Positions 5,519 through 36,840 are shown, counted from the stretch's first letter. The stretch: 64,000 nt of DNA from Natrinema salaciae (GCF_900110865.1 NZ_FOFD01000002.1:802835-866834), one strand, 5' to 3'. The notes: generated by a model not told the origin, from the sequence alone. Made by a program: numbers and translations.

Positions 5519-6159
5519 AGTGGCCTCGATCGGTAATACCGCGAGCCGATTGAAAAAGCGCGACGACCGTTCCACCCCGATTCCCGAGAACGGCTCGGAT
5601 TCCGTTCGTTCGGCGCTCGATCAACGAGCGGTGGCGCGGCTAAGATCGGCTTTCGAACTCGGCAATGACCGACTGGCTACCCCGTCCCGATCCGGTTAAT
5701 GAGGGATTATTCCGGGGGCGCTCGGACGAGAACCTGCCCAGCAAGCGCCGTACTCTCGATCACACCCTCCCTCGATCACCGGCCTCGTTCTGACCGATCG
5801 GTGCTCGACGAGGCCCCGCCACCGGTTTCGTCGGCTCCATCGGACCGATCCGGCACCGCAGTCGAGCGGCGTCGCGAATCGTTTCAGCCGCGAAAACGGT
5901 TTTATCGTCCGTATAGTGAACCGCCGAACGACGAAACCATCAGGTAATGAGATTACTCGTACCTGTGCACTGCGGACGACGAAGCCGGCAGCGTACCCCT
6001 GATCGAGTCCCGAATCGAGAGCCGGCGGACGGCAACGCGTTCACGACGGCGACCGCCGGGACCGGTCGCTCGACACTCTCCCGACCGAAACCGGCAGTAG
6101 CCGATATCGGCGAGACGGCGAGTGCGTAACAACCGACACCGAATTTCATCCCACCTACA
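5519..6159. other. 641-bp gap with one promoter-like motif and no convincing gene
   Basis: No ORF here shows protein-like composition. A GYTTA-N8-ATARTAA element lies at 5900-5919 on the + strand. Exactly 27 nt after it an ATG (5947) opens a 60-codon frame (to 6129). That spacing equals the leaderless spacing seen at other copies, so the small frame could be a leader peptide or a real short gene, but its sequence (Arg/Pro/Thr-rich) gives no other support. The following surface-protein gene at 6160 may be read from the same promoter. Confidence 0.4.
5900..5919 (+). promoter_or_regulatory. Bipartite glycan-region promoter motif (copy 1)
   Basis: TTTTA, 8 bp, ATAGTGA. It ends 27 nt before ATG 5947 and 240 nt before the surface-protein start at 6160. 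Confidence 0.4.
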
Positions 6160-7158
6160 ATGCGCCGCAATGCCCGACGACACCAGACGAAGACCCGATC
6201 GATTCAGAGCAGCGTCCAGGTTTTGCTCTTGGTTAGCGGTATGGCGTTCCTGCTGGCCGGGTTAGTACTCGCTGCGGGCGGAGCGTCCGTCGACAGCGCG
6301 ATCGGAACGGTCGACGACAGATGGGACGATTCACAGAAGCAGACCAGCGACGACGTCGAGTCGCCGAACGACGGAACGACGCCCACGGACGGCGGCAACG
6401 AAACCGACGGCGACGGCGGTAACAGCAGTGATGGCAGCGACGGCGGTGACGGCGGCGATGGCGGCGATGGCGGCGATGGCGGCGATGGCGGCGATGGCGG
6501 CGATGGCGGCGATGGCGGCGATGGCGGCGATGGCGGCGATGGCGGTGACGGCGACGGAGGCGATGGTAGCGACGGCGGTGACGGCGGCGACGGCGGTGAC
6601 GGCGACGACGGCAGCAACGAACAGCACACGTTGACGGTAATCGTCGAAGACCAGGACGGCAACCCGATCGACGGCGCCGATGTAAGTCACGACCCGTTCA
6701 GCGATAACAAAACCACGGGCGGGAACGGCGAGGCCGAGTGGACGGTCGAGGACGGGAGCTACCACGTGTCCGCGGCCGCGGACGGCTACCAGTCCGTGGA
6801 AGACGACGTCGAGATCGACGGCGGCGACGAGACGATCACGCTGACGCTCGAGGAGAGCGACTCCGGCGACGGCGGCGACGGCGGCGACGGAACGTACACG
6901 CTCTCGACGACCGTGGAAGACCAGAACGGCGACGCGATCGACAACGCGACCGTCGAAGCCGAGAGCGGATTGGGCTTCCTCGGCTGGAGCGACGAGAAAG
7001 ACGTCGACGACGACGGCAAAGCCGAGTTCCAGGACCTCGAGGACGGCGAGTACACGGTGACCGCGTCCGCGGACGGCTACGCGGACACGGAGCAAACCGT
7101 CACGATCGACGGCTCGGACGAGGACGTCACGTTGACGCTCGAGCCGGCTGACGGCTGA
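6160..7158 (+). CDS. Exported surface protein with Gly-Gly-Asp repeat linker and two Ig-like/carboxypeptidase-regulatory-like domains
   Basis: Predicted cell-surface protein of 332 residues. A basic N-terminus is followed by a hydrophobic segment (about residues 20-43) acting as signal or anchor. Next comes an acidic Asn/Asp/Gly spacer and a GGD repeat tract (about residues 88-150). Two tandem beta-domains of about 75 residues follow (about 152-235 and 245-330), each starting with a TVEDQ/IVEDQ-x-G strand and ending in a DGSYHVSAAADGY or DGEYTVTASADGY motif. These resemble CarboxypepD_reg/PEGA-like folds, often used in surface stalks or adhesion. No catalytic residues are seen. Confidence 0.75.
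   Translation: MRRNARRHQTKTRSIQSSVQVLLLVSGMAFLLAGLVLAAGGASVDSAIGTVDDRWDDSQKQTSDDVESPNDGTTPTDGGNETDGDGGNSSDGSDGGDGGDGGDGGDGGDGGDGGDGGDGGDGGDGGDGGDGDGGDGSDGGDGGDGGDGDDGSNEQHTLTVIVEDQDGNPIDGADVSHDPFSDNKTTGGNGEAEWTVEDGSYHVSAAADGYQSVEDDVEIDGGDETITLTLEESDSGDGGDGGDGTYTLSTTVEDQNGDAIDNATVEAESGLGFLGWSDEKDVDDDGKAEFQDLEDGEYTVTASADGYADTEQTVTIDGSDEDVTLTLEPADG
6451..6540 (+). repeat. Perfect 9-bp tandem repeat (GGCGGCGAT x 10)
   Basis: Ten consecutive identical copies of ggcggcgat, each coding Gly-Gly-Asp, flanked on both sides by degenerate copies using gac and ggt codons (about 6430-6610). The identity at synonymous positions shows recent expansion by slippage. The array stays in frame with the surrounding gene. 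Confidence 0.95.
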
Positions 7159-7479
7159 CGAGTCGGGCTGCCAACCCGATCTCGGGCGTCTGGACTGTTT
7201 TTGCGACCGTCACGTTCTCCATCGAACGCGGACGCCGATTCGACGGTCGCGGACTCGAGCATCGGCGTGCGCCGTGTACGCACCTCGCCCTCGTCTCGAC
7301 CGAACGCGTCGCAGGCCGTCGGTTGCCGCAGTCGTCGATCGACGCCGTCGAGAACGGTCCGAGACCGACCGCTCGATCACGGACTCGCCTCCGGGAGCCG
7401 ACTGTGACCGTCTCGCGACGGAGAACGGCCGCGTTATGTATTGGATAGCAATGGGTCGGAGCTCCGTATCGACGATCGA
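7159..7479. other. 321-bp gap without a gene
   Basis: I see no credible coding sequence. The only notable item is the promoter-like element at 7432-7451, just before the next gene. Confidence 0.5.
7432..7451 (+). promoter_or_regulatory. Bipartite promoter motif (copy 2, weaker)
   Basis: CGTTA, 8 bp, ATAGCAA. It deviates from consensus at two places but ends 28 nt before ATG 7480, the same spacing as other copies. Confidence 0.4.
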
Positions 7480-7935: not shown

Positions 7936-8100
7936 CTGGCTCCGAACGACGAGAGTAACTGGTGCGGCTGCGACCTGCTGTCGAAAGCGCCCTTCTTCTG
8001 GCTCTCTCGGGCACGAATCGAGGCCTCGTCTCACGCCGAGATAGGATGCTACCGGTTCGGACGGCTGCGTCGAAAAGACGTTAGTTGTCGGGCGAGGCGG

Positions 8101-9909
8101 TCATTCGACCGTAACGCTCTTCGCGAGGTTTCGCGGTTTGTCGATCGGACGATCGAGCTGATCCGCGGCGTGGTAGGAGAGCAGCTGCAGCTGGACGTTC
8201 GCGAGCAGTCCCGTCCAGACGGGGTGCGTGTCCGGGACCGACAGGTGCGCGTCGGCGATGTCGACGAGGGGATGGTCGTCCGGGCCGATGGCGACGATCG
8301 GTGCGCCCCGGGACTGGGCCTCGATCGCGTTCGTCTTCGTCTTGTCGTCGGCACCGCCGGTCGCGACCGCGAACACCGGCGTCGCCTCGGTCACGAGGGC
8401 GAGCGGCCCGTGTTTGAGCTCGCCGGCCGCGAACCCCTCCGCGTGCTCGTAGGTGATCTCCTTGAACTTCAGCGCGCCTTCGAGCGCGACCGAGCGACCG
8501 CGGCCGTTTCCGATGAAGAAAAACGACTCGCTGTCGAGCGTCTCCTCGGCGAGCGACTCGGCGGTGCTCGTCTCCAGGACGGTCTCGACGTGCTGTGGGA
8601 GGTCCTCGAGCGCCTCGAGCATCGCCGCCCGGTCCGCGACCGGCGCGGCGTCCGGCACGTCGCCGGCGAGGCGCTGGCTGAGGAGGGCGAGCGTGACCGC
8701 CTGCGAGGAGTAGGTTTTCGTCGCCGCGACGCCGACTTCCGGGCCAGCGCGGATGTAGACGGCGTCGTCGGCTTCGCGTGCGGCGGTCGACCCGACGACG
8801 TTGGTGACGGCCAGCGTCCGCGCGCCGCGATCGGCCGCTTTCCGGACTGCGTCGAGCGTATCGGCCGTCTCGCCGCTCTGCGTGACCGCGACGACGAGCG
8901 TCGTCTCGTCGACCGGTCCGGCCGTGGACTCGTACTCGCTGGCGCGGAGGACTTCGGCACGAACCCCGGCCTCTCGGACCAGCTGGCCGCCGTACATCGC
9001 GGCGTGATAGGAGGTCCCGCAGGCGACGAACTGGACGGAGTCGACATCGGCGAACGTCCCGGGTGGGAGACTCTCGAAGGCGACGTCGCCGTCCTCGATT
9101 CGCCCCTCGATCGTGTTCGAGAGGGCCGTCGGCTGCGTGTTGATCTCCTTGAGCATGTAGTGGTCGTACTCGCCTTTCCCGGCGTCTTCCGGGTCCCAAT
9201 CGACGGTGTCGATCGAGCGCTCGATCGGATTCCCGGCCAGATCGGAGATCTGGTAGGCGTCCGGCTCGAGGACGACGAGATCGCCGTCCTCGAGGTAGAT
9301 CACGTCCTCGGTGTGATCGAGGAACGCCGGGACGTCGCTGGCGAGGAACCACTCCTCGTCGTCGAGGCCGAGCACGAGCGGCGATCCCTTCCGCGCGGCG
9401 TAGACCGCCTCTTCGCCGTCGACGATCGCTGCGATCGCGTAGCTTCCCTCGAGCGTGTCGACGGCCTTCCGGACGGCTAGCTCGGTGTCGCCGGTCGCCT
9501 CCCGAAACTCGTCGATGAGGTGCGGGATGACCTCCGTGTCGGTGTCGCTCTCGAACTCGTGGCCCTTCGCCGTGAGCTCCGTTCTGAGCTCGTCGTAGTT
9601 GTCGATGACACCGTTGTGGACGACCGCCACGTCACCCGCCGTGTCCGTGTGCGGATGGGCGTTCGCGTCGGTCGGTGGCCCGTGCGTGCTCCAGCGAGTG
9701 TGGCCGATCCCCATGTTCCCGTGCGGATCGCTATCGAGCGACGATTTGAGATCGGAGACTTCGCCGGACGTCTTGTGTACCTTGACGCCGGAGCCGTTCT
9801 GGACGGCAATCCCAGCCGAGTCGTAGCCCCTGTACTCGAGGTTCTCCAGCCCCGAGAGGAGCGTCTCCGCCGCATTCCCCTGTCCGATTCGCGCGATAAT
9901 TCCGCACAT
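8101..9909 (-). CDS. glmS: Glutamine--fructose-6-phosphate aminotransferase (isomerizing)
   Basis: Makes glucosamine-6-phosphate from fructose-6-phosphate and glutamine, the first step to UDP-GlcNAc. The 602-residue protein starts MCGIIARIG, so Cys2 is the N-terminal nucleophile of the glutaminase domain, with HTRWSTHG and HNGVIDNYDEL motifs. Two SIS domains follow (about 280-420 and 450-590), with CGTSYHA and TQSGETADT sugar-phosphate motifs, ending KSVTVE as in the family. Start at 9909 is fixed by Cys2. A glycan-region promoter motif lies 220 nt upstream (10130-10149), linking this gene to the downstream sugar cluster and to glmM at 35.5 kb. Confidence 0.97.
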   Translation of the reverse strand: MCGIIARIGQGNAAETLLSGLENLEYRGYDSAGIAVQNGSGVKVHKTSGEVSDLKSSLDSDPHGNMGIGHTRWSTHGPPTDANAHPHTDTAGDVAVVHNGVIDNYDELRTELTAKGHEFESDTDTEVIPHLIDEFREATGDTELAVRKAVDTLEGSYAIAAIVDGEEAVYAARKGSPLVLGLDDEEWFLASDVPAFLDHTEDVIYLEDGDLVVLEPDAYQISDLAGNPIERSIDTVDWDPEDAGKGEYDHYMLKEINTQPTALSNTIEGRIEDGDVAFESLPPGTFADVDSVQFVACGTSYHAAMYGGQLVREAGVRAEVLRASEYESTAGPVDETTLVVAVTQSGETADTLDAVRKAADRGARTLAVTNVVGSTAAREADDAVYIRAGPEVGVAATKTYSSQAVTLALLSQRLAGDVPDAAPVADRAAMLEALEDLPQHVETVLETSTAESLAEETLDSESFFFIGNGRGRSVALEGALKFKEITYEHAEGFAAGELKHGPLALVTEATPVFAVATGGADDKTKTNAIEAQSRGAPIVAIGPDDHPLVDIADAHLSVPDTHPVWTGLLANVQLQLLSYHAADQLDRPIDKPRNLAKSVTVE

Positions 9910-10631
9910 CAGACGGTCACCTCCGCTCGAGCGGCGGCTGTCGGCGACGGTAACACACCGGACTGACGGCATGTGACGCGGTCGTTGTCGGTCGCGTCGG
10001 TCGTATCGAGTTGGTTCGCGATCGCTGCCCGCAGTGCAGTACTGTTCCGTGTCATTGGTATCACCGACCCCGTCTGCCGCCACTACCGACGGTCGGGGGC
10101 GTCACTCCAATCACGTGGGACAGCGGCCATTACTATACCACGAATAAGACGGTACTGTGAGTACGACGGTGGCTATCGGCTGTATAATCTCGAGTGCGTT
10201 TTCACAATCCATCGTTCAACATAGTTTTCGTAGAAAACCATCAGAATATTTTTCTGTTTGTGCGGATCATCGGGACGAGGTGCACAGTCCGGCCGTCGTT
10301 CGATACGCCGATATCGGCCGTTTGACCGCCGAACAAGTCGTGCAATTACCGATGTCGATCACGGGTTCGCCAGTCCGAACCGCTGACGCGTCGGTCCGCG
10401 TCGGACGGGCTTCCAGCGACAGGACGAGTGGAACTGTCCCCACTGTTTCGGCGTACGAAATGGCGTCCCCGCTCGAGCGTTCGCACTCGAGACTGGCGGG
10501 CGGGAACTGATGAACGAGCAACAGGGGATACGGACCGGATGCTGCGACGAGCGAGAACGTCGCCTTCGCGGACTCTCAGCCGCACTGAGACGTCAGCGAC
10601 GGGAACCATCGTACCGTCAGAGCGGGAGAAC
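9910..10631. other. 722-bp gap, glmS upstream region
   Basis: No ORF here looks like protein. It contains the promoter motif for glmS at 10130-10149 and an AT-richer stretch around 10200-10260. The rest is featureless to me. Confidence 0.45.
10130..10149 (-). promoter_or_regulatory. Bipartite promoter motif upstream of glmS (copy 3)
   Basis: Read on the minus strand: TCTTA, 8 bp, ATAGTAA. It lies 220 nt before the glmS start, the longest distance of the set. Confidence 0.55.
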
Positions 10632-11279
10632 TCACGCTACCGGGTTCTCGACCGCGTCCGACTCCGTCTCTCCGTTCGAGGGCCGATCCGTCAGGGTGAT
10701 GACGTTCTCTCTGCCGACCGATCGCTTCTCGATCGTCCCGTCGGCGTGCATCTGCGAGCAGATCCGGCTCACTTTCGACTTCGACCAACCAGTCTCTTCG
10801 GCGATCCGGTGTTGTCGGATCCGACCGTGATTCGCGATCAACAGTCGAACGACCTTCCCTTCGTCGCTCAGGAGCGTCGGCGGCGTTTCAGGCGAGAGAT
10901 ACGACTCGTACGCCCGCTGATCGGTGGCGTGTGCGTGATCCGATTCGGTTCCGCTACCCGCCGCAGCTGTTCCCAGTGGGAGCGACGACAGCTCGACGCT
11001 GCGGTCCGATAACACGTCGGCCATGCGAAGGCCGACGAGCGCACTGATCAGGAGGAACAGAACCGCGATCAGAGCCGATTCCCAGAACGACGTCGCGCGA
11101 AGCAGTTGTACCCAGGACAACGATCCACCGGACCCATCGCCGATCCGCGGTGCAATCGCTTCCGATGCAACAGCAGTGACATCGTACCGATGGGTCGAAG
11201 CCAGAACCGTCTCGATCGAGACGGTGCTGTGAATCGATTCGAATCCGGCTCTGACTTCGATCTGGGGCGTGGACACCAT
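10632..11279 (-). CDS. Membrane-associated winged-helix regulator
   Basis: About 215 residues: an N-terminal region without clear signal peptide, one transmembrane helix (ESALIAVLFLLISALVGL), a short acidic linker, then a C-terminal winged-helix domain (about 60 residues) with EGKVVRLLI, RIAEETGWSKSKVSRI and a wing containing RENVITL. This matches the MarR-like HTH domain found in haloarchaeal membrane-bound regulators, where an outer domain is tethered to a cytoplasmic DNA-binding domain. Usually a signal peptide and large external domain precede the helix; here that part is short. Start is uncertain: candidates are 11393, 11372 and 11279. I chose 11279 because a promoter-like element lies at 11369-11387. 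Confidence 0.65.
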   Translation of the reverse strand: MVSTPQIEVRAGFESIHSTVSIETVLASTHRYDVTAVASEAIAPRIGDGSGGSLSWVQLLRATSFWESALIAVLFLLISALVGLRMADVLSDRSVELSSLPLGTAAAGSGTESDHAHATDQRAYESYLSPETPPTLLSDEGKVVRLLIANHGRIRQHRIAEETGWSKSKVSRICSQMHADGTIEKRSVGRENVITLTDRPSNGETESDAVENPVA

Positions 11280-11368: not shown

Positions 11369-11387
11369 TCATTATAGAGTGATACAG
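11369..11387 (-). promoter_or_regulatory. Variant bipartite motif upstream of the membrane HTH gene
   Basis: Minus strand: CTGTA, 7 bp (not 8), ATAATGA. Poorer than other copies, and its validity depends on the start chosen for the gene. Confidence 0.25.
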
Positions 11388-11497: not shown

Positions 11498-11517
11498 GTT
11501 TATTCGAGCTATAGTAA
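11498..11517 (+). promoter_or_regulatory. Bipartite promoter motif upstream of the glycosyltransferase operon (copy 4)
   Basis: GTTTA, 8 bp, ATAGTAA. It ends 113 nt before the dehydrogenase start codon, in the long-leader group. Confidence 0.6.
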
Positions 11518-11630: not shown

Positions 11631-13031
11631 ATGACCACGATAATCAGCGACACGGAGAACCGAGCGGACGAGCGAGAGAGCGACCAGCACCCACGGGACG
11701 CGAGCGGCAACGGAACTGCCCTCGAACACACGGACGCACGCTCGACGCGTTCGGCGACGATCTGTGTCGTCGGATTGGGCTACGTCGGGCTCCCGCTCGC
11801 GGTCGGGTTCGCACAGTCGAACTACCGCGTGATCGGGTACGACGTCGACGACGTGACGGTCGGTCGGCTCCAGGAGGGTATCGACACGACCGGTGATCTC
11901 TCCGACGAAGCAGTCCGAGACGATGACATCTCGTACACGACGGACGCGACGGAGATCGGCGGGGCCGACTACGTCGTCATCGCCGTCCCGACGCCGATCG
12001 ACGACGACGATCGGCCGGACCTCGGGTACATCGAGAGTGCGGCGACCACCGTCGGTTCGAAGATGGACCCCGGAACGACGGTCGTCCTCGAGTCGACGGT
12101 CTATCCGGGGGCGACGCGCGAGGTCCTCGTGCCGGCGCTGGAAGACGCATCCGGGCTGACTGCGGGCGAGGACTTTTTCGTCGGCTACTCCCCGGAACGC
12201 GCGACGCCGGGCGACGAGAATCACGGCCTCGAGGACGTCGTCAAGGTCGTCAGCGCGCAAAACGAGAAGGTACTCGAGGACGTGGCGACGCTCTACGAGT
12301 CGATCGTCGACGCGGGCGTCCACCGTGCCCCGTCGATCGAGGTCGCCGAGGCGTGCAAGGTCATCGAGAACATCCAGCGCGACGTCAACATCGCGCTCGT
12401 CAACGAGCTGTCGATGGCCTTCGAACGGCTGGGGATCGATACCCGCGAAGTGCTCGACGCGGCGGGGACGAAGTGGAACTTCCACGATTACCGACCGGGC
12501 CTCGTCGGCGGACACTGTATTCCGATCGACCCGTACTTCTTCGCCCACCGCGCGACGCGAGCGGGAGCGGACCCGGAACTGATCCGCACGAGTCGTGCGG
12601 TCAACGAGTCGATGCCGAACCACGTCGCCGAGTTGACGATCAAGGCGCTCAACCAGTGTCACAAGACGCTCCGAGAGAGTCGCGTGCTGGTTCTCGGGCT
12701 CGCGTACAAGGCTGACGTGGGCGATATCCGCAGTTCAAAGGTCGCCGACGTCGTCGATCACCTCCGCGAGTTCGGGATCGACGTCGCAGGATACGATCCG
12801 CACGCGGAGGCCGACGCGGTCCGGAACGCGTTCGACATCGACGTACAGGACTCGCTCACGTTCGACGGCTTCGACGCCGTCCTCCTCACGACCGGCCACT
12901 CGGCGTTCGAGGAGTTCGACCTCGACGACGTCGCGGCAGCCCTCGACGATGACGCCGCGCTCGTCGACGTCGTGGGAGCGTTCGAATCGGACGACGCAGA
13001 CGACGCCGACCTCGTCTACCGCAGTTTATAA
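11631..13031 (+). CDS. Nucleotide sugar dehydrogenase (UDP-HexNAc 6-dehydrogenase type)
   Basis: Oxidises the C6 hydroxyl of a UDP- or GDP-sugar to a carboxylate with two NAD+. The 466-residue protein has a disordered N-terminus of about 40 residues, the NAD motif VVGLGYVGLPLAVGF (about 45-60), the central domain, and the catalytic cysteine in GGHCIPIDPYF (about 293-303), a pattern typical of the WbpA/TviB branch acting on UDP-GlcNAc or UDP-GalNAc. The C-terminal UDP-binding domain carries LGLAYKADVGDIRSS. First gene of a coupled run: its stop overlaps the next start by one base (TAATG). It would supply a HexNAc-uronate for the following transferases. Confidence 0.93.
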   Translation: MTTIISDTENRADERESDQHPRDASGNGTALEHTDARSTRSATICVVGLGYVGLPLAVGFAQSNYRVIGYDVDDVTVGRLQEGIDTTGDLSDEAVRDDDISYTTDATEIGGADYVVIAVPTPIDDDDRPDLGYIESAATTVGSKMDPGTTVVLESTVYPGATREVLVPALEDASGLTAGEDFFVGYSPERATPGDENHGLEDVVKVVSAQNEKVLEDVATLYESIVDAGVHRAPSIEVAEACKVIENIQRDVNIALVNELSMAFERLGIDTREVLDAAGTKWNFHDYRPGLVGGHCIPIDPYFFAHRATRAGADPELIRTSRAVNESMPNHVAELTIKALNQCHKTLRESRVLVLGLAYKADVGDIRSSKVADVVDHLREFGIDVAGYDPHAEADAVRNAFDIDVQDSLTFDGFDAVLLTTGHSAFEEFDLDDVAAALDDDAALVDVVGAFESDDADDADLVYRSL

Positions 13032-14077
13032 TGTATCGGAGACACACGATCGGCGTCATCGTCCCGGCGTACAACGAGGAACGCCACATCGGTGACGTCC
13101 TCGAGACGATGCCGGAGTACGTCGACCGCATCTACGCCGTCGACGACCGCTCGACGGACGACACCTGGCGAATCATCCAAGAGTACGCGGCCGCGTCGGA
13201 GCAGGCGGACGACGAACCCGCCAAAACGGAGGCACTCGAGGCCGACGGCGAGCGGGTTCGGGCATCCGTCCCGGACGGCGGAGCCGTCGTGGGGCCGGAG
13301 ATCGTCCCCATCCGTCACGCGGAGAATCAAGGGGCCGGCGGCGCGCTCCGGACGGGGTACGTTCGCGCGCGCGACGACGGTATCGATATCGCCGTCACGA
13401 TGGACGCCGACGGCCAGATGGACCCCGACCAGCTCCCGACGCTCCTGGACCCGATCGTGGATGGCGACGCCGACTACGCGAAGGGGAACCGGCTCGCAGA
13501 TCGGGCCTCGAGCCGAGAGATGCCGCCGTTTCGACTGTTCGGGAACTGGCTTCTGACCCAGCTCACGAAGATCGCGAGCGGCTACTGGCGGCTGCAGGAC
13601 CCACAGAACGGCTACACTGCGATCTCTCACGACGCGCTCTCGGCGATCGACGTGGAGTCGCTGCCGGACGATCACGATTACCCCAACGACCTGCTCGTGC
13701 GGCTGAACGTCGCGGGAATGCGCGTCGCCGACGTGTCGATGCCGGCCGTCTACGACGACGAGGAGAGTACGATCGAGTACCGGCGCTTCGTTCCGGCGAC
13801 GTCGGTTACGCTGCTGCGGGGATTCTGCCGCCGAATGACGGCGCAGTTTTCCGCCGATCGGCTCCACCCCACCGTCCTCTGTTACACCGCGGGGATCGCG
13901 TTGCTGGCGGCCGCCACCGCGATGGCGACCGTCAGCGCCGCTACTGCCACCGGCGGCGAGTCCGTCGTTCGGGAACCGATCGCGGCCGCGTTCGCGCTCG
14001 CGGCCAGCGTCGGCCTGCTCGCGGTCGCGATGCAAGTCGACGCGCAGGACAACGCCAAACTGGGGGTGCGTCGCTGA
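13031..14077 (+). CDS. GT2 family glycosyltransferase, dolichyl-phosphate sugar synthase-like, membrane-anchored
   Basis: Transfers a sugar from a nucleotide donor, likely to dolichyl phosphate. The GT-A fold is visible at VIVPAYNEERHIGDV, VDDRSTDDT and the metal-binding TMDADGQMDP. Between the first two blocks is an acidic insertion of about 40 residues not usual in the family. The FGNWLLTQL and QDPQNGYTAIS segments match polyprenyl-phosphate sugar transferases such as DPM1/AglD-like proteins. Two C-terminal hydrophobic helices (about 283-335) would anchor it on the cytoplasmic face. Starts within the previous stop and ends in a TGATG overlap with the next gene, so translation is probably coupled. 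Confidence 0.9.
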   Translation: MYRRHTIGVIVPAYNEERHIGDVLETMPEYVDRIYAVDDRSTDDTWRIIQEYAAASEQADDEPAKTEALEADGERVRASVPDGGAVVGPEIVPIRHAENQGAGGALRTGYVRARDDGIDIAVTMDADGQMDPDQLPTLLDPIVDGDADYAKGNRLADRASSREMPPFRLFGNWLLTQLTKIASGYWRLQDPQNGYTAISHDALSAIDVESLPDDHDYPNDLLVRLNVAGMRVADVSMPAVYDDEESTIEYRRFVPATSVTLLRGFCRRMTAQFSADRLHPTVLCYTAGIALLAAATAMATVSAATATGGESVVREPIAAAFALAASVGLLAVAMQVDAQDNAKLGVRR

Positions 14078-15147
14078 TGCGCGTGATCGTCACGATCCAG
14101 CACCCGGGTCACGTTCACTTTTTCAAACACGCGATCCGGGAACTCCAGGCGCAGGGCCACGAGCTCCACGTCTTCGCCCGCGAGAACGAAGTGACGGTCG
14201 AACTGCTCGAGCGCGCGGGAATCGACCACGAGGTGCTGGCCGGAGAGTCGAACTCGCTGTTCTCGCTGGCGGCGGTGCAGGCGACCTACGAGGCGCGGCT
14301 CCTCCGTCGGGCGCGACGGATCGATCCGGACGTGATCACGGCGATCGGCGGCGTCGCCGCGGCTCACGTCTCGTCGGTGGTCGGCGCGAAGAGCGTCGTC
14401 TTCTACGACACGGAACACGCGACGCTCATCAAGAAGCTCGCGTACCCCTTCGCGGACGTCGTCTGTACGCCCGAGTGCTATCGGGGCGACATCGGCTCGA
14501 AGCAGCTCACGTACCCCGGATACCACGAGCTCGCGTACCTGCATCCGGACCGGTTCGAGCCCGACCCGTCGGTCCTCGACGACGCCGGGCTGGACCCCGA
14601 CGACACTATCGCAGTGATGCGGCTGAGCAGCTGGGACTCCTCACACGACGTCGGACAGGGCGGGTTCGACGATCCGGTCGACGTCGTCGACCGCCTCGAG
14701 GCGGCCGGCGCGACCGTGCTGCTCACGTCGGAAGTCGACCTGCCGGCCGAACTCGAGCCGTATCGGTACACGTTGGCCCCGGATCGAATGCACGACCTGC
14801 TCGCCTTCGCGGACTGTTTCGTCGGCGAGGGGGCGACGATGGCCGCCGAGGCGGCGGTCCTCGGGACGCCGGCGGTGTACGTGAACTCGCTCGCGCTCGG
14901 CTACGTGACCGAACTCGACGACGAGTACGGACTCGTCTTCAGTTACAACGACGAGGACCGTCACGCTCGCTCGCTCGAACAGGCGCTCTCGATCGTCGAG
15001 CGAGATGACCCCTCGACGTGGCAGCGCCGCCGCGACCGGCTGCTCGCCGACCGGATCGACGTGACGGACGTCATCGTCCGGGAAGTCGAGACCGCCGGCT
15101 CCGAAACCGAGCCGGACCAGTCGACGCTCGCACCGAACCCAGGCTAA
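14077..15147 (+). CDS. DUF354 family predicted glycosyltransferase
   Basis: 356-residue cytoplasmic protein with a two-domain GT-B-like layout. The start MRVIVTIQHPGHVHFFKH is the DUF354 signature. AIGGVAAAHVSS closes the first half; the second half has SVVFYDTEHAT, TYPGYHELAYLHP, VGEGATMAAEAAVLGTPAVY and a C-terminal helix. The GEGATMAAEAA segment corresponds to the donor-binding loop of UDP-GlcNAc 2-epimerase/MurG-like folds. DUF354 has no firmly assigned reaction; here its place among glycosyltransferases suggests sugar transfer or epimerisation. Third gene of the run, overlapping the previous stop. Confidence 0.85.
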   Translation: MRVIVTIQHPGHVHFFKHAIRELQAQGHELHVFARENEVTVELLERAGIDHEVLAGESNSLFSLAAVQATYEARLLRRARRIDPDVITAIGGVAAAHVSSVVGAKSVVFYDTEHATLIKKLAYPFADVVCTPECYRGDIGSKQLTYPGYHELAYLHPDRFEPDPSVLDDAGLDPDDTIAVMRLSSWDSSHDVGQGGFDDPVDVVDRLEAAGATVLLTSEVDLPAELEPYRYTLAPDRMHDLLAFADCFVGEGATMAAEAAVLGTPAVYVNSLALGYVTELDDEYGLVFSYNDEDRHARSLEQALSIVERDDPSTWQRRRDRLLADRIDVTDVIVREVETAGSETEPDQSTLAPNPG

Positions 15148-15149
15148 CT

Positions 15150-19780: not shown

Positions 19781-19800
19781 TTATTATCGCCAAGATAAGC
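19781..19800 (-). promoter_or_regulatory. Bipartite promoter motif upstream of DUF1616 (copy 5)
   Basis: Minus strand: GCTTA, 8 bp, ATAATAA. Inside it TTATC and GATAA form a perfect 5-bp inverted repeat with a 5-bp spacer. Confidence 0.65.
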
Positions 19801-23274: not shown

Positions 23275-23294
23275 TTACTATGGTACCGTTAAGC
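23275..23294 (-). promoter_or_regulatory. Bipartite promoter motif upstream of the asparagine-synthase-like gene (copy 6)
   Basis: Minus strand: GCTTA, 8 bp, ATAGTAA; 106 nt before the start codon. A second copy on the other strand (23339-23358) serves the divergent gene. Confidence 0.6.
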
Positions 23295-23338: not shown

Positions 23339-23358
23339 GACTATCGAATCTATAATAA
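23339..23358 (+). promoter_or_regulatory. Bipartite promoter motif upstream of deacetylase-like lipoprotein 1 (copy 7)
   Basis: GACTA, 8 bp, ATAATAA; ends 30 nt before ATG 23389. Confidence 0.6.
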
Positions 23359-26081: not shown

Positions 26082-26101
26082 TTACTACAGACGCTATAAG
26101 C
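26082..26101 (-). promoter_or_regulatory. Bipartite promoter motif upstream of the M14 gene (copy 8)
   Basis: Minus strand: GCTTA, 8 bp, GTAGTAA; 28 nt before the start codon. Confidence 0.55.
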
Positions 26102-27204: not shown

Positions 27205-27224
27205 TTATTATCGCGTGGATAAAC
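27205..27224 (-). promoter_or_regulatory. Bipartite promoter motif upstream of GT2 (copy 9)
   Basis: Minus strand: GTTTA, 8 bp, ATAATAA, a consensus match 27 nt before the start. Includes the inverted repeat TTATC-N5-GATAA. Confidence 0.7.
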
Positions 27225-27370: not shown

Positions 27371-27390
27371 GTCTAATAACTGTATAAGAA
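27371..27390 (+). promoter_or_regulatory. Bipartite promoter motif upstream of deacetylase-like lipoprotein 2 (copy 10)
   Basis: GTCTA, 8 bp, ATAAGAA; 27 nt before ATG 27418. Confidence 0.5.
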
Positions 27391-27417: not shown

Positions 27418-28686
27418 ATGACGAATCGAAACCGCCGATCGTTCGTGACGACTGTTGCAGCGGCCGGAACGCTCGGGTTGTCCGGCTGTCTCTCACAGTT
27501 TCGAGAGTGGCGTGGCGGCGATACCACGTCGACGGAACCGACGCCGAACGGAGACGCTAACTCGTCCGAAACGGACGACCTACCGGAGCTGTCCGGTGAA
27601 TCGGTCGAAGACTTCGAGAATCTCGACGACTGGACGGCGATGATCGACGCCGGCGAACTCGAGGCCGAACCGAACGACCCGTACGCCGGCTCGCAGTCGG
27701 CTCGCCTCACGGCGTCAGCGGGCACCGATTCCGCGGCCATCTACAGGGCGATCCCCGACGGGCTGGATCTGAGCGGCAAGGCCCTCTCGCTGGCCGTCAA
27801 CTTCACCGGTCGCGATCAGCTCCACCTCACGCTCGAACTGTTCGCACCGAACTCGCGCAACGTCCACGCGATGCAGCGAACGCTCACCGGGCCGAGCGAT
27901 CGGTGGGTTCGCGTCGACTTCGGCACGGGTCGGATCGATACCCAGCCCGACCTGACGAACGTCCGCGAGATTCGGCTGACCGCTCGCCGGCGTGGTGACT
28001 CGTCCGGCTCCATCGACTGCCGGATCGACGACCTGCGGGCCATCGATCGCCCGACGACGGGGAAAGTGCTGTTCCTGTTCGATGGAACGCTCGAGAGCCA
28101 CTACACGCGCGCCTTCGAACGGATGGAGCCCTACGGCTTCCCGGGTGTCGAGGCCGTCATGCCCGAAGCTCTCGGGCAGGACGGCAGGCTCACGCTCGAC
28201 AAACTCGACGAACTGGACGACGCGGGCTGGGACATGGCAGCCCGGCCGCGAACGGGTGCCAGCTTCCTCCACGAGTACACCCCCGAAAAGCAAAAAGGCA
28301 TGATCGAACGGACGAAGGTGTTTCTCGAGAACCGCGGCTTCGAGGACGGCGCCAGGCACTTCGTCACGCCTCGCAACATACTCAGCCCGACCGCCCGTGA
28401 CCTCGTCGAGGAGTACCACGAGCAAGCGTTCCGGTTCGGCGGCGCGCCGAACGCGCTCCCGCTTACGGACCCCTACAACGTGGGGTTCTTCGCCGGCAAT
28501 GCCGGCGACGAGGCGAGAACGTACATCGACTACGCCGCCGAATACGGCCAGCTCGCGGTGTTGCAGTTCGACTACATCGGCGACGACGGTATCAGCGAAC
28601 GCGCGTTCGAGGGCATCCTCGAGTACGTCGACGCGCAGAGCGTCGAGGTCGTGTCCGCGAGCGATCTGTTGGGACCGTCCTACTGA
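27418..28686 (+). CDS. Tat lipoprotein, deacetylase-like fold with degenerate active site
   Basis: 422 residues, same architecture as the protein at 23389: signal NRRSFVTTVAAAGTLGLSGC with lipobox Cys, an acidic linker, a beta module starting VEDFENLDDWTA, and a NodB-like C-terminal domain (about 218-420). Every catalytic position looks lost: the DDG motif is reduced to LFLFDGT, the His motif region reads MAARPRTGAS, and the final His block is LQFDYIG. It probably binds rather than cleaves a glycan, or supports the active paralogue. Single gene with its own promoter motif 27 nt upstream. Confidence 0.8.
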   Translation: MTNRNRRSFVTTVAAAGTLGLSGCLSQFREWRGGDTTSTEPTPNGDANSSETDDLPELSGESVEDFENLDDWTAMIDAGELEAEPNDPYAGSQSARLTASAGTDSAAIYRAIPDGLDLSGKALSLAVNFTGRDQLHLTLELFAPNSRNVHAMQRTLTGPSDRWVRVDFGTGRIDTQPDLTNVREIRLTARRRGDSSGSIDCRIDDLRAIDRPTTGKVLFLFDGTLESHYTRAFERMEPYGFPGVEAVMPEALGQDGRLTLDKLDELDDAGWDMAARPRTGASFLHEYTPEKQKGMIERTKVFLENRGFEDGARHFVTPRNILSPTARDLVEEYHEQAFRFGGAPNALPLTDPYNVGFFAGNAGDEARTYIDYAAEYGQLAVLQFDYIGDDGISERAFEGILEYVDAQSVEVVSASDLLGPSY

Positions 28687-28970: not shown

Positions 28971-30593
28971 CTAAATGCCGGCGTCGAACAGGCCGAACGC
29001 GAGCCCCGAGAGGAGCAACGACAGCCCGGCGACGAACAACAGGCTCTGCAACCAGTTACGAGACGGCCCGCTGCGTTCGCCGCCGACGAGCCGACCGTAG
29101 ACCGCGTCCGCTTTCGCGCCGATCGGGTCGGGGAACGCGGACAGGATCTCGAACGGCTCCGCCGGCTCGAGTGCACCGACGAGAACGGCGAACGTAACGA
29201 AGATGGCGAAGCCGACGGGCGGAACCACTGCGAGCGCGACCCACGGGTTCGCGATCGCCGTCGAGAGCGCGACGATAGGGACAGCCGTGAGGGCGGTGGT
29301 CAGCGCCGACCGACCGAGTCGCGCGTCCGCGAGCGGGTCGAAACCGACCCGTCGCGCGCTCCAGCAGTGGAAGACGAGCATCGATCCGTATCCGACGCTG
29401 GTCGCGACGGCGGCACCTCGCATTCCGTACTGCGGAATGAGGGTGACGTTGAGTACCAGGTTGATCGCGGCCGCAGCGCCGGTTGCCGCGACCGGATACC
29501 GAAGCGTTCCCTCTCCCTGCGAGATCGCCAGCACCGGGCGCGCGAGCGCAAATCCGAGCGCACCGGGGAGCAGCAACAACAGCGGCGTGATCGCCGGCAG
29601 CGCCTCGTGACCGAAATAGAGCGGCACCGCGACGTCCGCCAGCGCCGCGAGGCCGACCGCCATCAGGGCCGTCAGCAGGAACGTGTAGCGCATCGTCCGG
29701 GAAGCGAGATCGGAGATTTCCCGGACGCGGTTCTGCGACCACAGCTCCGACGTGGAGTGGACGAACACCGTCTGGACCGCCATCGGCACGAACCAGAGGA
29801 ACTCCGCGAGCGTGAGCGCCGCTTTGTAGTTCCCGACCGACGTGCTCCCGCGGAACCGCTGGAGCATCACGATGTCGATGTGATAGAGCGACATCATCAG
29901 GAAGATCAGCGCGATGCTCATCGAATTGAACGTGAGCATCTGTTTCCGCGGGAAATTCGCCGGCGGTCGTCCGAACACACAGGACAGCGACACCCGGCGG
30001 TGAACGAGCACCAGGCCGATCGCTGCGACGAGCGCGCTCGCGAACAGGTGCCCGGCCAGGGCCCCGACGACACCGCCACCGACGTAGACCAGCGGAACCG
30101 CGACTACGGCGAAGGCGACCTTGTCGACGACCTTCAGCGGCTCCGAATACCGCTCGAGGCCGAATCCCATGAGCGTCTTGCGCGTGTAGTCGCGAAACTG
30201 CGCCGTCACCACGAGCGCGGCGAGGATGTAGAAGTACGGCTGTAGCTCGGGGTCGAACGCGAGGCCGACGAGCCCGAACCGGGTCGCGAGCACCAGGAGG
30301 AACGCACCGAGACCGGACAGGAAGAGGGCCAACCGGAGGTAGTAGCCGACGACGTGTTCGCTCCAGTTTGCCGCGTGGCGGTCCTCCGCGAGGTACTTCC
30401 TGACCCCGTCGGTGATCCCGGAACTGACGAAGATCATGTAGATCGCGAAGACCGACAGCAGAAACGAGTACGCGCCGAACTCGGATGCACCCAGAAGGCG
30501 GTACAAAAGCGGCGTCGAGAGCGCGGTGACGACCAGTGCGACGATCTTTGCGCTGACGACCGCGAAGACGCCGCTCGTAATACTCCTGTTCAC
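28971..30593 (-). CDS. Oligosaccharide flippase family protein (Wzx/AglR-like)
   Basis: 540 residues with about 12-14 hydrophobic helices, of the polysaccharide-biosynthesis flippase (MATE-like) superfamily. The N-terminus SGVFAVVSAKIVALVVTALS followed by LLGASEFGAYSFLLS matches Wzx-type flippases, and LLLLLPGALGFALARPVLAIS matches the second repeat. It probably moves a lipid-linked oligosaccharide to the outside for N-glycosylation or exopolysaccharide assembly. It stands alone, facing the lipoprotein gene. ATG 30593 gives a leader of about 106 nt after the promoter motif. Confidence 0.9.
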   Translation of the reverse strand: MNRSITSGVFAVVSAKIVALVVTALSTPLLYRLLGASEFGAYSFLLSVFAIYMIFVSSGITDGVRKYLAEDRHAANWSEHVVGYYLRLALFLSGLGAFLLVLATRFGLVGLAFDPELQPYFYILAALVVTAQFRDYTRKTLMGFGLERYSEPLKVVDKVAFAVVAVPLVYVGGGVVGALAGHLFASALVAAIGLVLVHRRVSLSCVFGRPPANFPRKQMLTFNSMSIALIFLMMSLYHIDIVMLQRFRGSTSVGNYKAALTLAEFLWFVPMAVQTVFVHSTSELWSQNRVREISDLASRTMRYTFLLTALMAVGLAALADVAVPLYFGHEALPAITPLLLLLPGALGFALARPVLAISQGEGTLRYPVAATGAAAAINLVLNVTLIPQYGMRGAAVATSVGYGSMLVFHCWSARRVGFDPLADARLGRSALTTALTAVPIVALSTAIANPWVALAVVPPVGFAIFVTFAVLVGALEPAEPFEILSAFPDPIGAKADAVYGRLVGGERSGPSRNWLQSLLFVAGLSLLLSGLAFGLFDAGI

Positions 30594-30699
30594 GGTTTCA
30601 CCTTGGAACGCTGAAACCGACGATGGACGACCCGCATCGCCGGCGGTCGCTCACGATCCGACGTACTCACTGTGTCCAGAGAGTGGCGACGACGTGGCG

Positions 30700-30719
30700 T
30701 TATTATACGTGGGTTAAAC
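30700..30719 (-). promoter_or_regulatory. Bipartite promoter motif upstream of the flippase (copy 11)
   Basis: Minus strand: GTTTA, 8 bp, ATAATAA; a consensus match, 106 nt before the start. Confidence 0.65.
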
Positions 30720-32723: not shown

Positions 32724-33386
32724 TTATCGGGAGTCGTTCGGCATTCGATCGTTCTCGAGCGTGGCGGCGATCAGTTCGGAGATCGCGCGCCGCAGCCGCT
32801 GGGAGACCGCCGAGTCCGAAATACCGAGGCGATCGGCGAGGTCGTCCTGCGTGATCTCTCGTGGCACCTCGAAGTAGTCGCCGTAGTAGGCCATCGTGAG
32901 AATCTCGTGCTGGCGCTCGGTCAGGAAGTACGTCCGCTCGTCCGACGCCGATGAGTCGTACAGCTGCGTCACACGAAACGAGATCCCACGGTCGTGGTAG
33001 TGCGCCCGGAACGCCGACAGCGTGTCCCGGTCGGGAAGGTGGACGCGGATGTTCCAGCCTCCGTTCTCGCTCGTTACCGTGAAGACGAACAGTCCGTACT
33101 CGGCACAGTGATCCGGCACGAGCTCGAGATCGGTGTCGAGGAGAATGCGATAGATGTCCCGGTTCTCGAACGCGGCGACGCGAACCGCCCTCGAGACCGT
33201 CGGATCGTCGGCCAGCGCATCCTCGACGGCCGTGGTCTCGCCGCCGAAGGCGGAGACGAACTGTAGACGTCGCCCGTCGACCGTCGTCCCGTACTCGTAT
33301 CTAAACGTGACGCCGGAACAGCGATCGATCGTCGGCACCAGCGGAAGGTCGTCGTGGACGAGGTGGATTGCTGCGATAAATCCCAT
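32724..33386 (-). CDS. HTH_10 (bacterio-opsin activator type) regulator
   Basis: 220-residue cytoplasmic regulator. The N-terminal half (about 1-150) is the sensor-like region of haloarchaeal Bat-type proteins, with LVHDDLPLVP and RILLDTDLELVPDHCAEYGLFVF. The C-terminal HTH_10 domain begins LTERQHEILTMAYYGDYFEVPREI and continues QDDLADRLGISDSAVSQRLRRA, the recognition-helix region. It could control the surrounding glycan genes. Start at MGFIAA (33386), since the preceding 50 codons are not family-like. A promoter motif lies 41 nt upstream. Confidence 0.9.
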   Translation of the reverse strand: MGFIAAIHLVHDDLPLVPTIDRCSGVTFRYEYGTTVDGRRLQFVSAFGGETTAVEDALADDPTVSRAVRVAAFENRDIYRILLDTDLELVPDHCAEYGLFVFTVTSENGGWNIRVHLPDRDTLSAFRAHYHDRGISFRVTQLYDSSASDERTYFLTERQHEILTMAYYGDYFEVPREITQDDLADRLGISDSAVSQRLRRAISELIAATLENDRMPNDSR

Positions 33387-33427: not shown

Positions 33428-33447
33428 TACTTATACCGCGGCTAAGA
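33428..33447 (-). promoter_or_regulatory. Bipartite promoter motif upstream of the HTH_10 gene (copy 12)
   Basis: Minus strand: TCTTA, 8 bp, ATAAGTA. Weaker in the right half, 41 nt before the start. Confidence 0.45.
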
Positions 33448-33576: not shown

Positions 33577-35262
33577 TCAGTTCATGTAGCCGAGATCGGC
33601 CAGTCGATCGGTCACCGCTTCGTCCGTCGCCGGCCGCTGTTCGTCGTCCCCTTCCTCGTACTCGGGATAGGACATCGGTTCGACCGGGTCGACGACCGGA
33701 ACCACGTTGCCGTCCATGCGGTCGCTGTAGGGGACCCCCATCGCGGCCATGACCGTCGGCGCGACGTCGAAGAGATGGGCCCGCTCCAGGGAGGCGTCCT
33801 CGTCGATTCCCTCGCCCGCGGCGAGGAAGATCCCGTCGAGCTTGTGGTTCCAGGGCTCGGCCGGGTGGAAGTAGTCACCGTCGGCTAGCTGTTCGGAGAG
33901 CATGTGTTCGAAGTCCGCGGGGATCGTGACGATATCGACGGTCTCGTCTATCTCGTCGCCGTGGAAGTACTGTTCACGCGGTGCGACCGTCTCGAAGAAC
34001 GGCTCACCGTCGGGCGTCTCGACGGCCTGAAGCGTTCGAATGAGTTCCTCGCGGAGTTCCTCGTACTCGTCCTGTGGAACGACGCCCGTCGGATCGCGCC
34101 CCTCGAGGTTGATCCGGACGCCGAGTTCGGTTCGCGCACGAACGTACGCCGCCGATTCGGCGAAGTCGACCTGCTCGTTGGCCGTCCGGGAGACGCCGCC
34201 CGGCGCGTACTCGATAGCGACATCGGCCAGTCCGACGCGCTCGAGCGCCGTTCTGATGCGGCGGGCGGTGACCCCGAACCGGGCGGCGACCGATGCCGCG
34301 CGCGCGACCGGCCCCGGCTCCCAGGTGTCGTACTCCTCCCCCTCGCGGAGCCGCCTGCGCATCGGCGTCCACGATGGCATCCCCTTGCCCCCGGTCGTCG
34401 TCTCGAGGAAGTCCATGTCGCGGAGGTATTCGTTGATCCGGAACTCGTACCCCTCGTACGCGCCCATCCCGTGGTCGCTGACCAGGAAGACGCGGTCCGG
34501 ATCGCACGCATCGAGGATCGCCCCGATCTGCTCGTCGGCCGCCTCGTACACCGGGCCGATGTGGCGATCGTCGCCGCTGAACTCGTGAAAGACCGTGTCC
34601 GTCTTCTGAAACTGGATGAAGCCGAACGCCGGCTCGAACTCGTCGACGAGGTAGCGAAACGCTTCGCCGCGCATCCGAACGAGGTTCTGGTACTCCGCGA
34701 TCTTCGCCTCGTCGTCGAGCGAGTCGTCGTCACGCGTATAGTTCGGATAGACGCGATACGCTCCGATCTCGTCGCGGATCTCGTCTAAGAGCCCCTCGGG
34801 ATGACATCGCGGGTCCTCGGGGCCGAGGAATCCAGGAACGACCGCCCCGTCGAACTCGTCCGGCGGATGCGTGACCGGCGCGTTGACGATGACGCTCGAG
34901 CGATCGTGGCGATCCAGCAGCGTCCACAGCGGATGCTCCCGGACGTCGTCGTTGCTCGTCACGTGCCAGTCGTACCCGTCGTAGCCGACGAAGCCGACCA
35001 CGCCGTGTTTCCCGGGGTTGACGCCGGTGTAGATCGACGGCCAGGCACTCGGCGTCCACGGCGGAATCTGCGACTCGAGCGGCGCGGTTACGCCCTCCGA
35101 ACAGAGCCGCTCGATGGTCGGAATCCGATCGTCTTCGAACAATCGCTCGAAGACCGGTAGACACCCCGCGTCGATACCGATAAGCAGCGTCTCCAATCCG
35201 TTCGATTCCTGTGCGGTACTCCCAGTCGGTGTTGCGTCGTCACGGCGAAACGTCCGAGTCAT
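33577..35262 (-). CDS. Alkaline phosphatase superfamily phosphodiesterase/phosphotransferase
   Basis: 561-residue enzyme of the type I phosphodiesterase/nucleotide pyrophosphatase group. Metal-binding and nucleophile positions are visible: LLIGIDAG near residue 30, PPWTPSAWPSIYTG (Thr/Ser nucleophile) near residue 70, DTVFHEF, VSDHGMGAYEG, and a late WNHKLDGIFLAAG. It lacks a signal peptide, so it should act in the cytoplasm. Proteins of this group occur in archaeal glycan clusters, where they may transfer or remove phospho-sugar groups; substrate unknown. Promoter motif 109 nt upstream of ATG 35262. Confidence 0.85.
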   Translation of the reverse strand: MTRTFRRDDATPTGSTAQESNGLETLLIGIDAGCLPVFERLFEDDRIPTIERLCSEGVTAPLESQIPPWTPSAWPSIYTGVNPGKHGVVGFVGYDGYDWHVTSNDDVREHPLWTLLDRHDRSSVIVNAPVTHPPDEFDGAVVPGFLGPEDPRCHPEGLLDEIRDEIGAYRVYPNYTRDDDSLDDEAKIAEYQNLVRMRGEAFRYLVDEFEPAFGFIQFQKTDTVFHEFSGDDRHIGPVYEAADEQIGAILDACDPDRVFLVSDHGMGAYEGYEFRINEYLRDMDFLETTTGGKGMPSWTPMRRRLREGEEYDTWEPGPVARAASVAARFGVTARRIRTALERVGLADVAIEYAPGGVSRTANEQVDFAESAAYVRARTELGVRINLEGRDPTGVVPQDEYEELREELIRTLQAVETPDGEPFFETVAPREQYFHGDEIDETVDIVTIPADFEHMLSEQLADGDYFHPAEPWNHKLDGIFLAAGEGIDEDASLERAHLFDVAPTVMAAMGVPYSDRMDGNVVPVVDPVEPMSYPEYEEGDDEQRPATDEAVTDRLADLGYMN

Positions 35263-35371
35263 CGGTTCATCTGTATACCAAGTAGTTCCGTTCGACCGCT
35301 GCCGCCAGTCGGCGGAAGCGGTGTCGTTCGTTGCACCACGTATCTACTCCCAGTCTGAGCGACGAAACACT

Positions 35372-35391
35372 TCATTATCGATAGGTTAAAC
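35372..35391 (-). promoter_or_regulatory. Bipartite promoter motif upstream of the phosphodiesterase (copy 13)
   Basis: Minus strand: GTTTA, 8 bp, ATAATGA; 109 nt before the start. Confidence 0.6.
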
Positions 35392-35457
35392 CGTTCTAGA
35401 AGCCGGAACGCCGGTAATTCCTCGACAGCGCGACTCAGTGCCTGCGAACCCGCGACG

Positions 35458-36795
35458 TCACTGTTTGATTCCCGAGACGGTCGCGATCGCGTTCTCGAGG
35501 ATTCCGATCCCGTCGGCCTCGAGACGTTCGGCGCGAAACTCGTCCCGCGCTTCGACCGTGAGACGGACGACGGGTTCGGTCCCGCTCGCACGCAGGAGCA
35601 TCCAGCCATCGTCGAGGTCGACGTAGACGCCGTCGAGCGTGTCGACGTCGTCGTACTGCTCCTGAACGCGATCCCGAACCCGGTTCATCACGGCGGCTTT
35701 CGCCTCGACCCTGACCGACGCGCGACGGATGGGGTACGTCTCGATCGCCGCGACGAGCGACGACAGCGGGCCCCGTTCGGCAGCGAGCGCGACCAGCTTG
35801 CACGCGGCGAGCGGGCCGTCCGGGCACGGCGTCTCGTCGGGCCAGATCCACGCTCCGCTCGGCTCGCCGCCGAAGACGACGTCCGGCCGTGCAGCGCGGT
35901 CGGCCACGAACGTGTCGCCGACCCGCGTTCGGCTCACTGATGCGCCGACCGACGCCAGCGCGTCGTCGACGGCCATGCTCGTCCCGACCGGCGCAGCGAT
36001 CACGTCGCCGTCGGTCGCCGCCTCGCGCGCGAACAGCGCCAGGAGGACGTCCTTCGGCACGAACGACCCCGTCTCGTCGACGGCGAGCATCCGATCAGCG
36101 TCGCCGTCGTGCGCGACGCCGAGCGCGGCGTCCGTCGATTCGACGAGCGCCGAGAGATCGCCCAGCGTCTCTCGAGTCGGTTCACTCGGCCGACCCGGAA
36201 AGCGGCCGTCTCGCTGCCCGTTCAGCGTCACGACGTCACAACCGAGCGTCGAGAGCGCACGGGCAGTGACTCCACCGGCACCGTTCCCGACGTCGACGGC
36301 GACGCTCGGCGGGTCCTCGATCGACACCGACTCGACCAGCGCCGCCGCGTGTCGGGCCGTCGCGTCCTCGAGTCGCTCGAGCGAGCCGTGCCCGTCCCAG
36401 GGCCGCGGGTCGTACTCGTCGCCCCCGACTCGAGCGGCGATCGCGTCGCGCTCCTCGGGACCGAAGGCCTTGCCCGACGCCGACCAGAGTTTGAGCCCGT
36501 TGTCCGGTGCCGGATTGTGCGAGGCCGTGACGACGATTCCCGCGTCCGCGTTCGCCCGTGGGACGGCCCTGGCGATCGTCGGCGTCGGTGCGATCCCGGC
36601 CTCGAGGACGTCCGCACCGCAGTCGCGCAATCCAGCGGTCAGTGCGTCGACCAGAACCGCACCGCTCTCGCGAACGTCTCGCCCGACGACGACACGATCG
36701 TAGCCGTCCGACGCGACGGCGCGACCGACCGAGAGAGCGAGTTCGGCCGTTACCTCCTCGCCGACGGTTCCGCGAATACCGCTCGTTCCGAACAT
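35458..36795 (-). CDS. glmM: Phosphoglucosamine mutase/phosphohexomutase
   Basis: Interconverts glucosamine-6-P and -1-P (or other hexose phosphates). The 445-residue protein starts MFGTSGIRGTVGEEV, has the phosphoserine loop VVTASHNPAPDNGLKLW near residue 93, the metal loop GVAHDGDADRM, the sugar-binding FGGEPSGAWIW, and the C-terminal phosphate-binding RASGTEPVVRLTVEA. GlmM is the most likely role given glmS in the same regulon-like region, but phosphomannomutase cannot be excluded. Start fixed at 36795 by homology. Promoter motif 25 nt upstream. Confidence 0.92.
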   Translation of the reverse strand: MFGTSGIRGTVGEEVTAELALSVGRAVASDGYDRVVVGRDVRESGAVLVDALTAGLRDCGADVLEAGIAPTPTIARAVPRANADAGIVVTASHNPAPDNGLKLWSASGKAFGPEERDAIAARVGGDEYDPRPWDGHGSLERLEDATARHAAALVESVSIEDPPSVAVDVGNGAGGVTARALSTLGCDVVTLNGQRDGRFPGRPSEPTRETLGDLSALVESTDAALGVAHDGDADRMLAVDETGSFVPKDVLLALFAREAATDGDVIAAPVGTSMAVDDALASVGASVSRTRVGDTFVADRAARPDVVFGGEPSGAWIWPDETPCPDGPLAACKLVALAAERGPLSSLVAAIETYPIRRASVRVEAKAAVMNRVRDRVQEQYDDVDTLDGVYVDLDDGWMLLRASGTEPVVRLTVEARDEFRAERLEADGIGILENAIATVSGIKQ

Positions 36796-36820
36796 AGCGG
36801 AATGCTCGAAGAGAACGGAA

Positions 36821-36840
36821 TTACTATGAAGTCGGTAAAC
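36821..36840 (-). promoter_or_regulatory. Bipartite promoter motif upstream of glmM (copy 14)
   Basis: Minus strand: GTTTA, 8 bp, ATAGTAA; 25 nt before the start. The transposon relic begins directly upstream of it. Confidence 0.65.

Follow-up and report, generated by a model that had tools for sequence, protein, structure and literature searches.

The glycan locus and its shared promoter element

The 64,000-nucleotide stretch of Natrinema salaciae DNA analysed here (NZ_FOFD01000002.1:802835-866834; the window) carries a glycan-polymer locus whose functions span precursor supply (glmS, glmM, glmU), sugar-nucleotide oxidation, glycosyl transfer, flipping and extracytoplasmic modification, and before nearly all of its transcription units stands the bipartite element GYTTA-N8-ATARTAA (Table 1). 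An earlier note on this DNA had listed copies of the element; every one is present in the sequence, nine of them on the minus strand. Genes were called with a simple codon-usage script, and some starts may be wrong; that of the DUF1616 gene was corrected using relatives.

The concentration of the element at this locus is evident from genome-wide counts. The 4,857,017-base genome holds eight exact matches, of which six fall in 25 kb of the glycan locus (binomial p ~6e-13), and the reversed pattern, used as a control, matches once. With up to two mismatches allowed, the window holds 15 matches against 0.47 expected from shuffles. A weight matrix trained on the loci of relatives only, with a strong site defined as one of at least 19 bits, returns 13 strong sites in 31 kb of the locus versus 3 in 400 kb of control DNA from the same genome (Poisson p ~8e-19), a roughly 56-fold higher density, so that the motif is not equally common before unrelated genes. 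Nor does it occur at the same rate inside coding regions: coding sequence makes up 79% of the 36 loci surveyed, yet 95 of their 99 exact sites fall between genes, these sites being related by descent and their counts not independent. Chance AT-richness as the source of the motif is ruled out by the shuffles, the reversed pattern and the control DNA.

The 8-bp gap proves as constant as the earlier note had described it, with 99 N8 sites and none with N4-N7 or N9-N14 in 1.25 Mb, and the matrix scan likewise finds no strong site upstream of leuS, purK, ribH or nuoA, where none had been seen by eye. Two listed copies fared less well. The variant at 11369 scores 10.1 bits and its counterpart gene in relatives has no site (0/11), and it was dropped; the copy at 7432 is correctly placed before a gene start but is individually weak and has no orthologues, and we carry it as uncertain.

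Table 1. Copies of the element and candidate regulator genes in the window; orthologue counts use the threshold of at least 19 bits.
Feature	Position	Strand	Score	Predicted +1	Orthologues with site; remarks
TTTTA-N8-ATAGTGA before PEGA/CarboxypepD_reg secreted protein (6160/6241-7158)	5900..5919	+	22.7 bits	5946	conserved ~235-258 nt upstream of orthologue in 5/6 relatives
weak candidate CGTTA-N8-ATAGCAA before gene 7480	7432..7451	+	14.6 bits		28 nt before gene; uncertain
copy before glmS (8101-9909)	10130..10149	-	24.0 bits	10103	14/17
exact copy before UDP-sugar dehydrogenase/glycosyltransferase operon (11631-18087)	11498..11517	+	28.1 bits	11544	14/19
exact copy before DUF1616 gene (18764-19753)	19781..19800	-	27.1 bits	19754	13/16; orthologue sites 26-29 nt from start
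exact copy before asparagine-synthase-like gene (21468-23168)	23275..23294	-	22.3 bits	23248	11/16
copy before deacetylase-like lipoprotein (23389-24720)	23339..23358	+	25.8 bits		8/8
copy before AstE/AspA-like PKD protein (24875-26053)	26082..26101	-	20.1 bits		3/6; two more at 16.6-17.8 bits
exact copy before glycosyltransferase 2 gene (26203-27177)	27205..27224	-	27.8 bits	27178	14/15
copy before second lipoprotein (27418-28686)	27371..27390	+	22.6 bits	27417	5/9; all at least 14.7 bits
exact copy before flippase (28971-30593)	30700..30719	-	25.6 bits	30673	14/15
copy before HTH_10/BAT regulator gene (32724-33386)	33428..33447	-	19.8 bits		weaker site, 14.6-20.9 bits, comparably placed in most orthologues of the family
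copy before type I phosphodiesterase-like gene (33577-35262)	35372..35391	-	25.2 bits		9/10
exact copy before glmM (35458-36795)	36821..36840	-	23.4 bits		kept by unlinked glmM in another genus (L065)
DUF7344 winged helix with two C-terminal transmembrane helices, best candidate regulator	20143-20754	+	Pfam PF24035 E=1e-30
second, shorter DUF7344-like membrane protein	20827-21240	-	sub-threshold Pfam match			less regular in relatives
DUF7343 winged helix with one transmembrane stretch, alternative candidate regulator	10632-11279	-	Pfam PF24034 E=6e-27
HTH_10/BAT regulator	32724-33386	-	Pfam PF04967 E=1e-16 and PF15915

Conservation across genomes

Exact matches are found in 89 of 121 genomes of the family, typically three to seven per genome and mostly within one stretch, with a low count for the reversed-pattern control. 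In ten relatives the sites lie upstream of the same orthologous genes, and at the level of the order motif clusters recur in other families, nearly all of the fetched clusters lying in the same kind of locus. The genes preceded by the element in relatives encode glmS, glmM, the UDP-sugar dehydrogenase, glycosyltransferase, flippase, DUF1616 protein, deacetylase-like lipoproteins and phosphodiesterase; genera with a site near this gene set include Natrinema, Natronococcus, Natrialba, Natronorubrum and Halostagnicola, as well as Haladaptatus, Halosimplex, Halostella, Haloarcula and Haloferax. Promoters that have no site are equally consistent among orthologues (DUF7343, 0/11; DUF7344, 0/17; the second DUF7344-like protein, 0/8; a beta-helix protein, 0/19).

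That the sites are conserved merely because the locus is inherited as a block is exceedingly improbable. Family genomes that lack the motif do also lack the locus orthologues, as block inheritance would have it; yet unlinked pathway genes in other genomes (glmM, GlmU, flippase, asparagine-synthase-like, phosphodiesterase) retain the site, the motif letters are kept while the letters of the GC-rich N8 spacer vary freely, and sites persist both in a rearranged locus (G037) and across families at ~55-65% protein identity. The local enrichment, the intergenic placement, the use of the same orthologous promoters across families and the unlinked pathway genes together support the suggestion of the earlier note that these genes form a single regulon.

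Promoter anatomy

Counting the G of GYTTA as position 0, a profile of 93 exact sites has GC-rich flanks except for W (A or T) at 20 and WW at 35/36 (AT 82% and 60%), with a purine at 46. At sites followed by long leaders, position 35 is W in 85% of cases (p=1e-12), position 45 a pyrimidine in 91% and position 46 a purine in 85%; because no start codon can force such a pattern across a long leader, it is independent of the start codon. If position 46 is taken as +1, WW would fall at -11/-10, ATARTAAW at -33..-26 and GYTTA at -46..-42. Many genes begin 25-30 nt beyond the element, which would make their transcripts leaderless or almost leaderless.

In the published haloarchaeal layout, a TATA box of the form TTWT, a transcription factor B recognition element (BRE) CGAAA and WW at -10 precede mostly leaderless transcripts (PMC4983044). 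The element, as far as sequence can tell, has this same layout written in different BRE/TATA letters: an AT-rich element lies ~26-29 nt upstream of +1 and WW at about -10, and in place of the usual TATA/BRE sequences there are ATARTAAW and the GC-rich N8. GYTTA lies immediately upstream of the BRE position, the place of a conserved upstream-activator box of the EarA, Ptr2 or Bat type, and the right half occupies the BRE/TATA position itself; in the 93 exact sites no further AT-rich stretch lies between the element and WW, ATARTAAW being the only one. Among 199 control promoters, AT content peaks at -29..-26 from the start codon, and ATARTAA stands at the TATA place in 1 of 199. The element thus reads as a regulon-specific core promoter itself, beyond a mere upstream operator.

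Position, invariant spacing and an atypical TATA box are features that fit archaeal activators, and activation is therefore the best inference; as a rule, such activators bind directly upstream of the BRE and make up for weak BRE/TATA sequences (PMC5512572). The main rival is repression, in which a repressor would bind GYTTA-N8-ATARTAA across the BRE/TATA region and block TBP/TFB. The element does overlap the BRE/TATA position, where archaeal repressors can bind (PMC5512572), but an operator could work without keeping one fixed position with respect to WW and +1, or one fixed distance from the TATA box, at every target, and here the usual TATA consensus is replaced, not just overlapped; we consider repression unlikely.

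A dedicated TFB/TBP pair that, acting like a sigma factor, reads the element as an alternative core promoter is very unlikely: GYTTA is not where TFB usually makes its contacts, the locus in the window has no recognised TFB gene, and counts of TFB domains are alike in same-genus genomes with the motif (17-33) and without it (17-30). Such a pair would account for a core promoter with an atypical TATA box, and the use of alternative TBP-TFB pairs by haloarchaea has been suggested (PMC1447603).

Candidate regulators

The earlier note had put forward the HTH_10, DUF7344-type or MarR-like proteins of the region as possible regulators. Of these, the DUF7344 protein tracks the motif best, and HTH_10 does so less well. 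Co-occurrence was scored in genomes outside the organism's own family, comparing 17 genomes with at least three exact sites to 102 with at most one, the scores being rounded exponents of the best matches. A DUF7344 match with E ~1e-37 or better is present in 17/17 motif-cluster genomes versus 7/102 others, giving an area under the curve (AUC) of 0.98, compared with 0.86 for HTH_10 and 0.83 for DUF7343. All seven exceptions come from a single family (f14), and in the DUF7344 neighbourhoods of six of them diverged sites of at least 19 bits precede the same genes, 4-10 in five and at least 3 in the sixth (G166); by comparison, 0 and 1 sites were counted in two genomes whose only DUF7344 protein is a paralogue.

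The DUF7344 protein matches the Pfam profile with 106 bits against a cut-off of 27.8 and is thereby placed in the family; its AlphaFold model has a high-confidence winged helix at residues 38-133 and helices at 149-171 and 182-202 within a hydrophobic C-terminus. By its modelled design, a DNA-binding domain fused to membrane helices, it would be a membrane-anchored one-component regulator. Its own gene is among those whose orthologues have no site, as expected for an upstream sensor. A fold search gave only weak MarR-like winged-helix matches, none significant.

Two other proteins of the locus have to be weighed as the regulator. The DUF7343 protein is also a membrane-anchored winged helix, and it adjoins glmS or the dehydrogenase operon in most clusters; against it stand its lower AUC and the lack of a match in the fetched stretches of three motif-bearing loci (G153, G194 and G211, the stretches of the latter two being partial), and we regard this candidacy as doubtful. 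The HTH_10/BAT protein might act here as Bat does for bop, for it lies within the locus and its gene is itself preceded by a weaker copy of the site. Besides its intermediate AUC, it often has ten to twenty paralogues per genome, and several of the motif-bearing loci fetched (e.g. G141, G223, G179) showed no such protein, which makes this role distinctly improbable; it is probably a member of the regulon. Within the organism's own family, the locus, DUF7344 and DUF7343 come and go together, and co-occurrence there cannot separate the regulators for that reason.

A model for coordinated expression

The best explanation, to which we assign a probability of roughly three in four, is that GYTTA-N8-ATARTAAW is a regulon-specific core promoter served by an activator at GYTTA, most likely the DUF7344 protein. 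Since ATARTAAW departs from the usual haloarchaeal BRE/TATA sequences, these promoters would be weak alone and require an activator, which would bind GYTTA about one helical turn upstream, perhaps contacting the ATAR bases too, and recruit TBP/TFB; by compensating for the atypical BRE/TATA box it would tie the genes into one regulon. As a membrane-anchored one-component regulator, DUF7344 would couple the state of the envelope to polymer synthesis, with the DUF7343 and HTH_10 proteins acting as co-sensors or targets. The genes for synthesis and export of a surface sugar polymer would in this way probably be switched on together by one dedicated candidate regulator.

Several points weigh against this reading. 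The naming of DUF7344 is correlative, and co-occurrence cannot prove it over neighbouring genes because the locus is inherited largely as a block; taken on its own, the identification of this protein as the activator is about an even call. DUF7344 is a family of many paralogues, for which a best-hit score is merely a proxy for orthology, and the DUF7344 alignment, searched against solved structures, returned no significant match. The transcription start sites are predictions from the sequence, and activation is preferred to repression on grounds of position.

The glmS, glmM and GlmU-like genes indicate a supply of UDP-N-acetylglucosamine (UDP-GlcNAc), and the dehydrogenase is, among named enzymes, closest to the UDP-GlcNAc 6-dehydrogenase model, scoring below that model's cut-off. 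Together with the glycosyltransferases, flippase and deacetylase-like lipoproteins, these genes suggest that the product may be an acidic amino-sugar polymer.

In the literature searched we found no described haloarchaeal surface-polymer regulon and no publication on DUF7344. A close parallel in promoter layout is the EarA-dependent fla promoter of Methanococcus maripaludis, where short boxes also lie immediately upstream of the BRE (PMC5512572); EarA is a winged-helix activator of a surface structure and can be bypassed by a change in the BRE (PMC5512572). That system has four 6-bp boxes at one promoter, whereas here there is one GYTTA of different sequence at an invariant distance from the TATA box at ~13 promoters, and the protein is a candidate only. 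In protein design DUF7344 would resemble ArnR/ArnR1 of Sulfolobus, membrane-anchored helix-turn-helix one-component activators of surface structures (PMC6396743); the ArnR boxes, however, are inverted repeats, TCGAC-N5-GTCGA, between -43 and -84, and both the protein family and the lineage differ. The Bat-dependent purple-membrane regulon of Halobacterium (PMC1447603) is similar in that an upstream activator sequence (UAS) precedes several genes and the cluster includes a regulator gene, and differs in its few targets, separate UAS and other protein family. The CsmR motif of Haloferax volcanii, TATCA-N4-TGATA (PMC13286277), is likewise a haloarchaeal regulon motif beside a TATA box, recently described, but it is semi-palindromic, stands apart from the TATA box and governs motility and cell shape, and no such palindrome appears in the 93-exact-site profile or the refined matrix.

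Few archaeal regulons are defined at the base-pair level. The element supplies a rule by which promoters, start sites and glycan-regulon members can be predicted from sequence in many genomes, it gives the large and unstudied DUF7344 family a candidate function, and its absolute box-to-TATA spacing makes this natural promoter set useful for studying how archaeal activators act with TBP/TFB. A bolder proposal, which we hold tentatively and think clearly less probable than not, is that these promoters form a separate archaeal core-promoter class, in which two rigidly spaced boxes would be recognised as one unit, functionally like bacterial -35/-10, read by membrane-anchored DUF7344 jointly with TBP/TFB and reserved throughout Halobacteriales for surface-glycan synthesis.

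Leader reading frames and sites outside the locus

Short open reading frames (ORFs) occur in three of the leaders. After the site at 5900, an ATG at the leaderless position opens a 60-codon ORF (5947-6129) that stops short of the PEGA-domain gene. The glmS leader holds a short ORF (9909-10075, minus strand) that starts ATGACACG and reaches the glmS start with a TGATG overlap; a relative has a similar one. In the flippase leader, a leaderless ORF of ~25 codons (30593-30670, minus strand) has a GTG start near the predicted +1, and its TGA overlaps the GTG start of the flippase gene, a layout common to most of the relatives shown.

The two exact matches outside the locus in the organism's own genome differ in setting: one (L007) is set in AT-rich, palindrome-like sequence and has no called gene in the 400 nt that follow it, and the other (L008) is 112 nt upstream of a secreted-protein gene. 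One of the three strong sites in the control DNA (19.1 bits) stands 27 nt before a GlmU-like nucleotidyltransferase gene and is probably a true target; in this region (L074:9461-10985) a divergent 23.2-bit site lies ~300 bp away, and a second glmM-like gene follows. In two other genomes the element precedes a small PadR-type regulator gene (L057:4740-5069 and L065:4561-5115), in one case divergently from glmM. In some other families (L058, L059, L061, L062) it is also found outside the main locus, in front of genes for secreted proteins and of further genes, and the regulon may be wider there.

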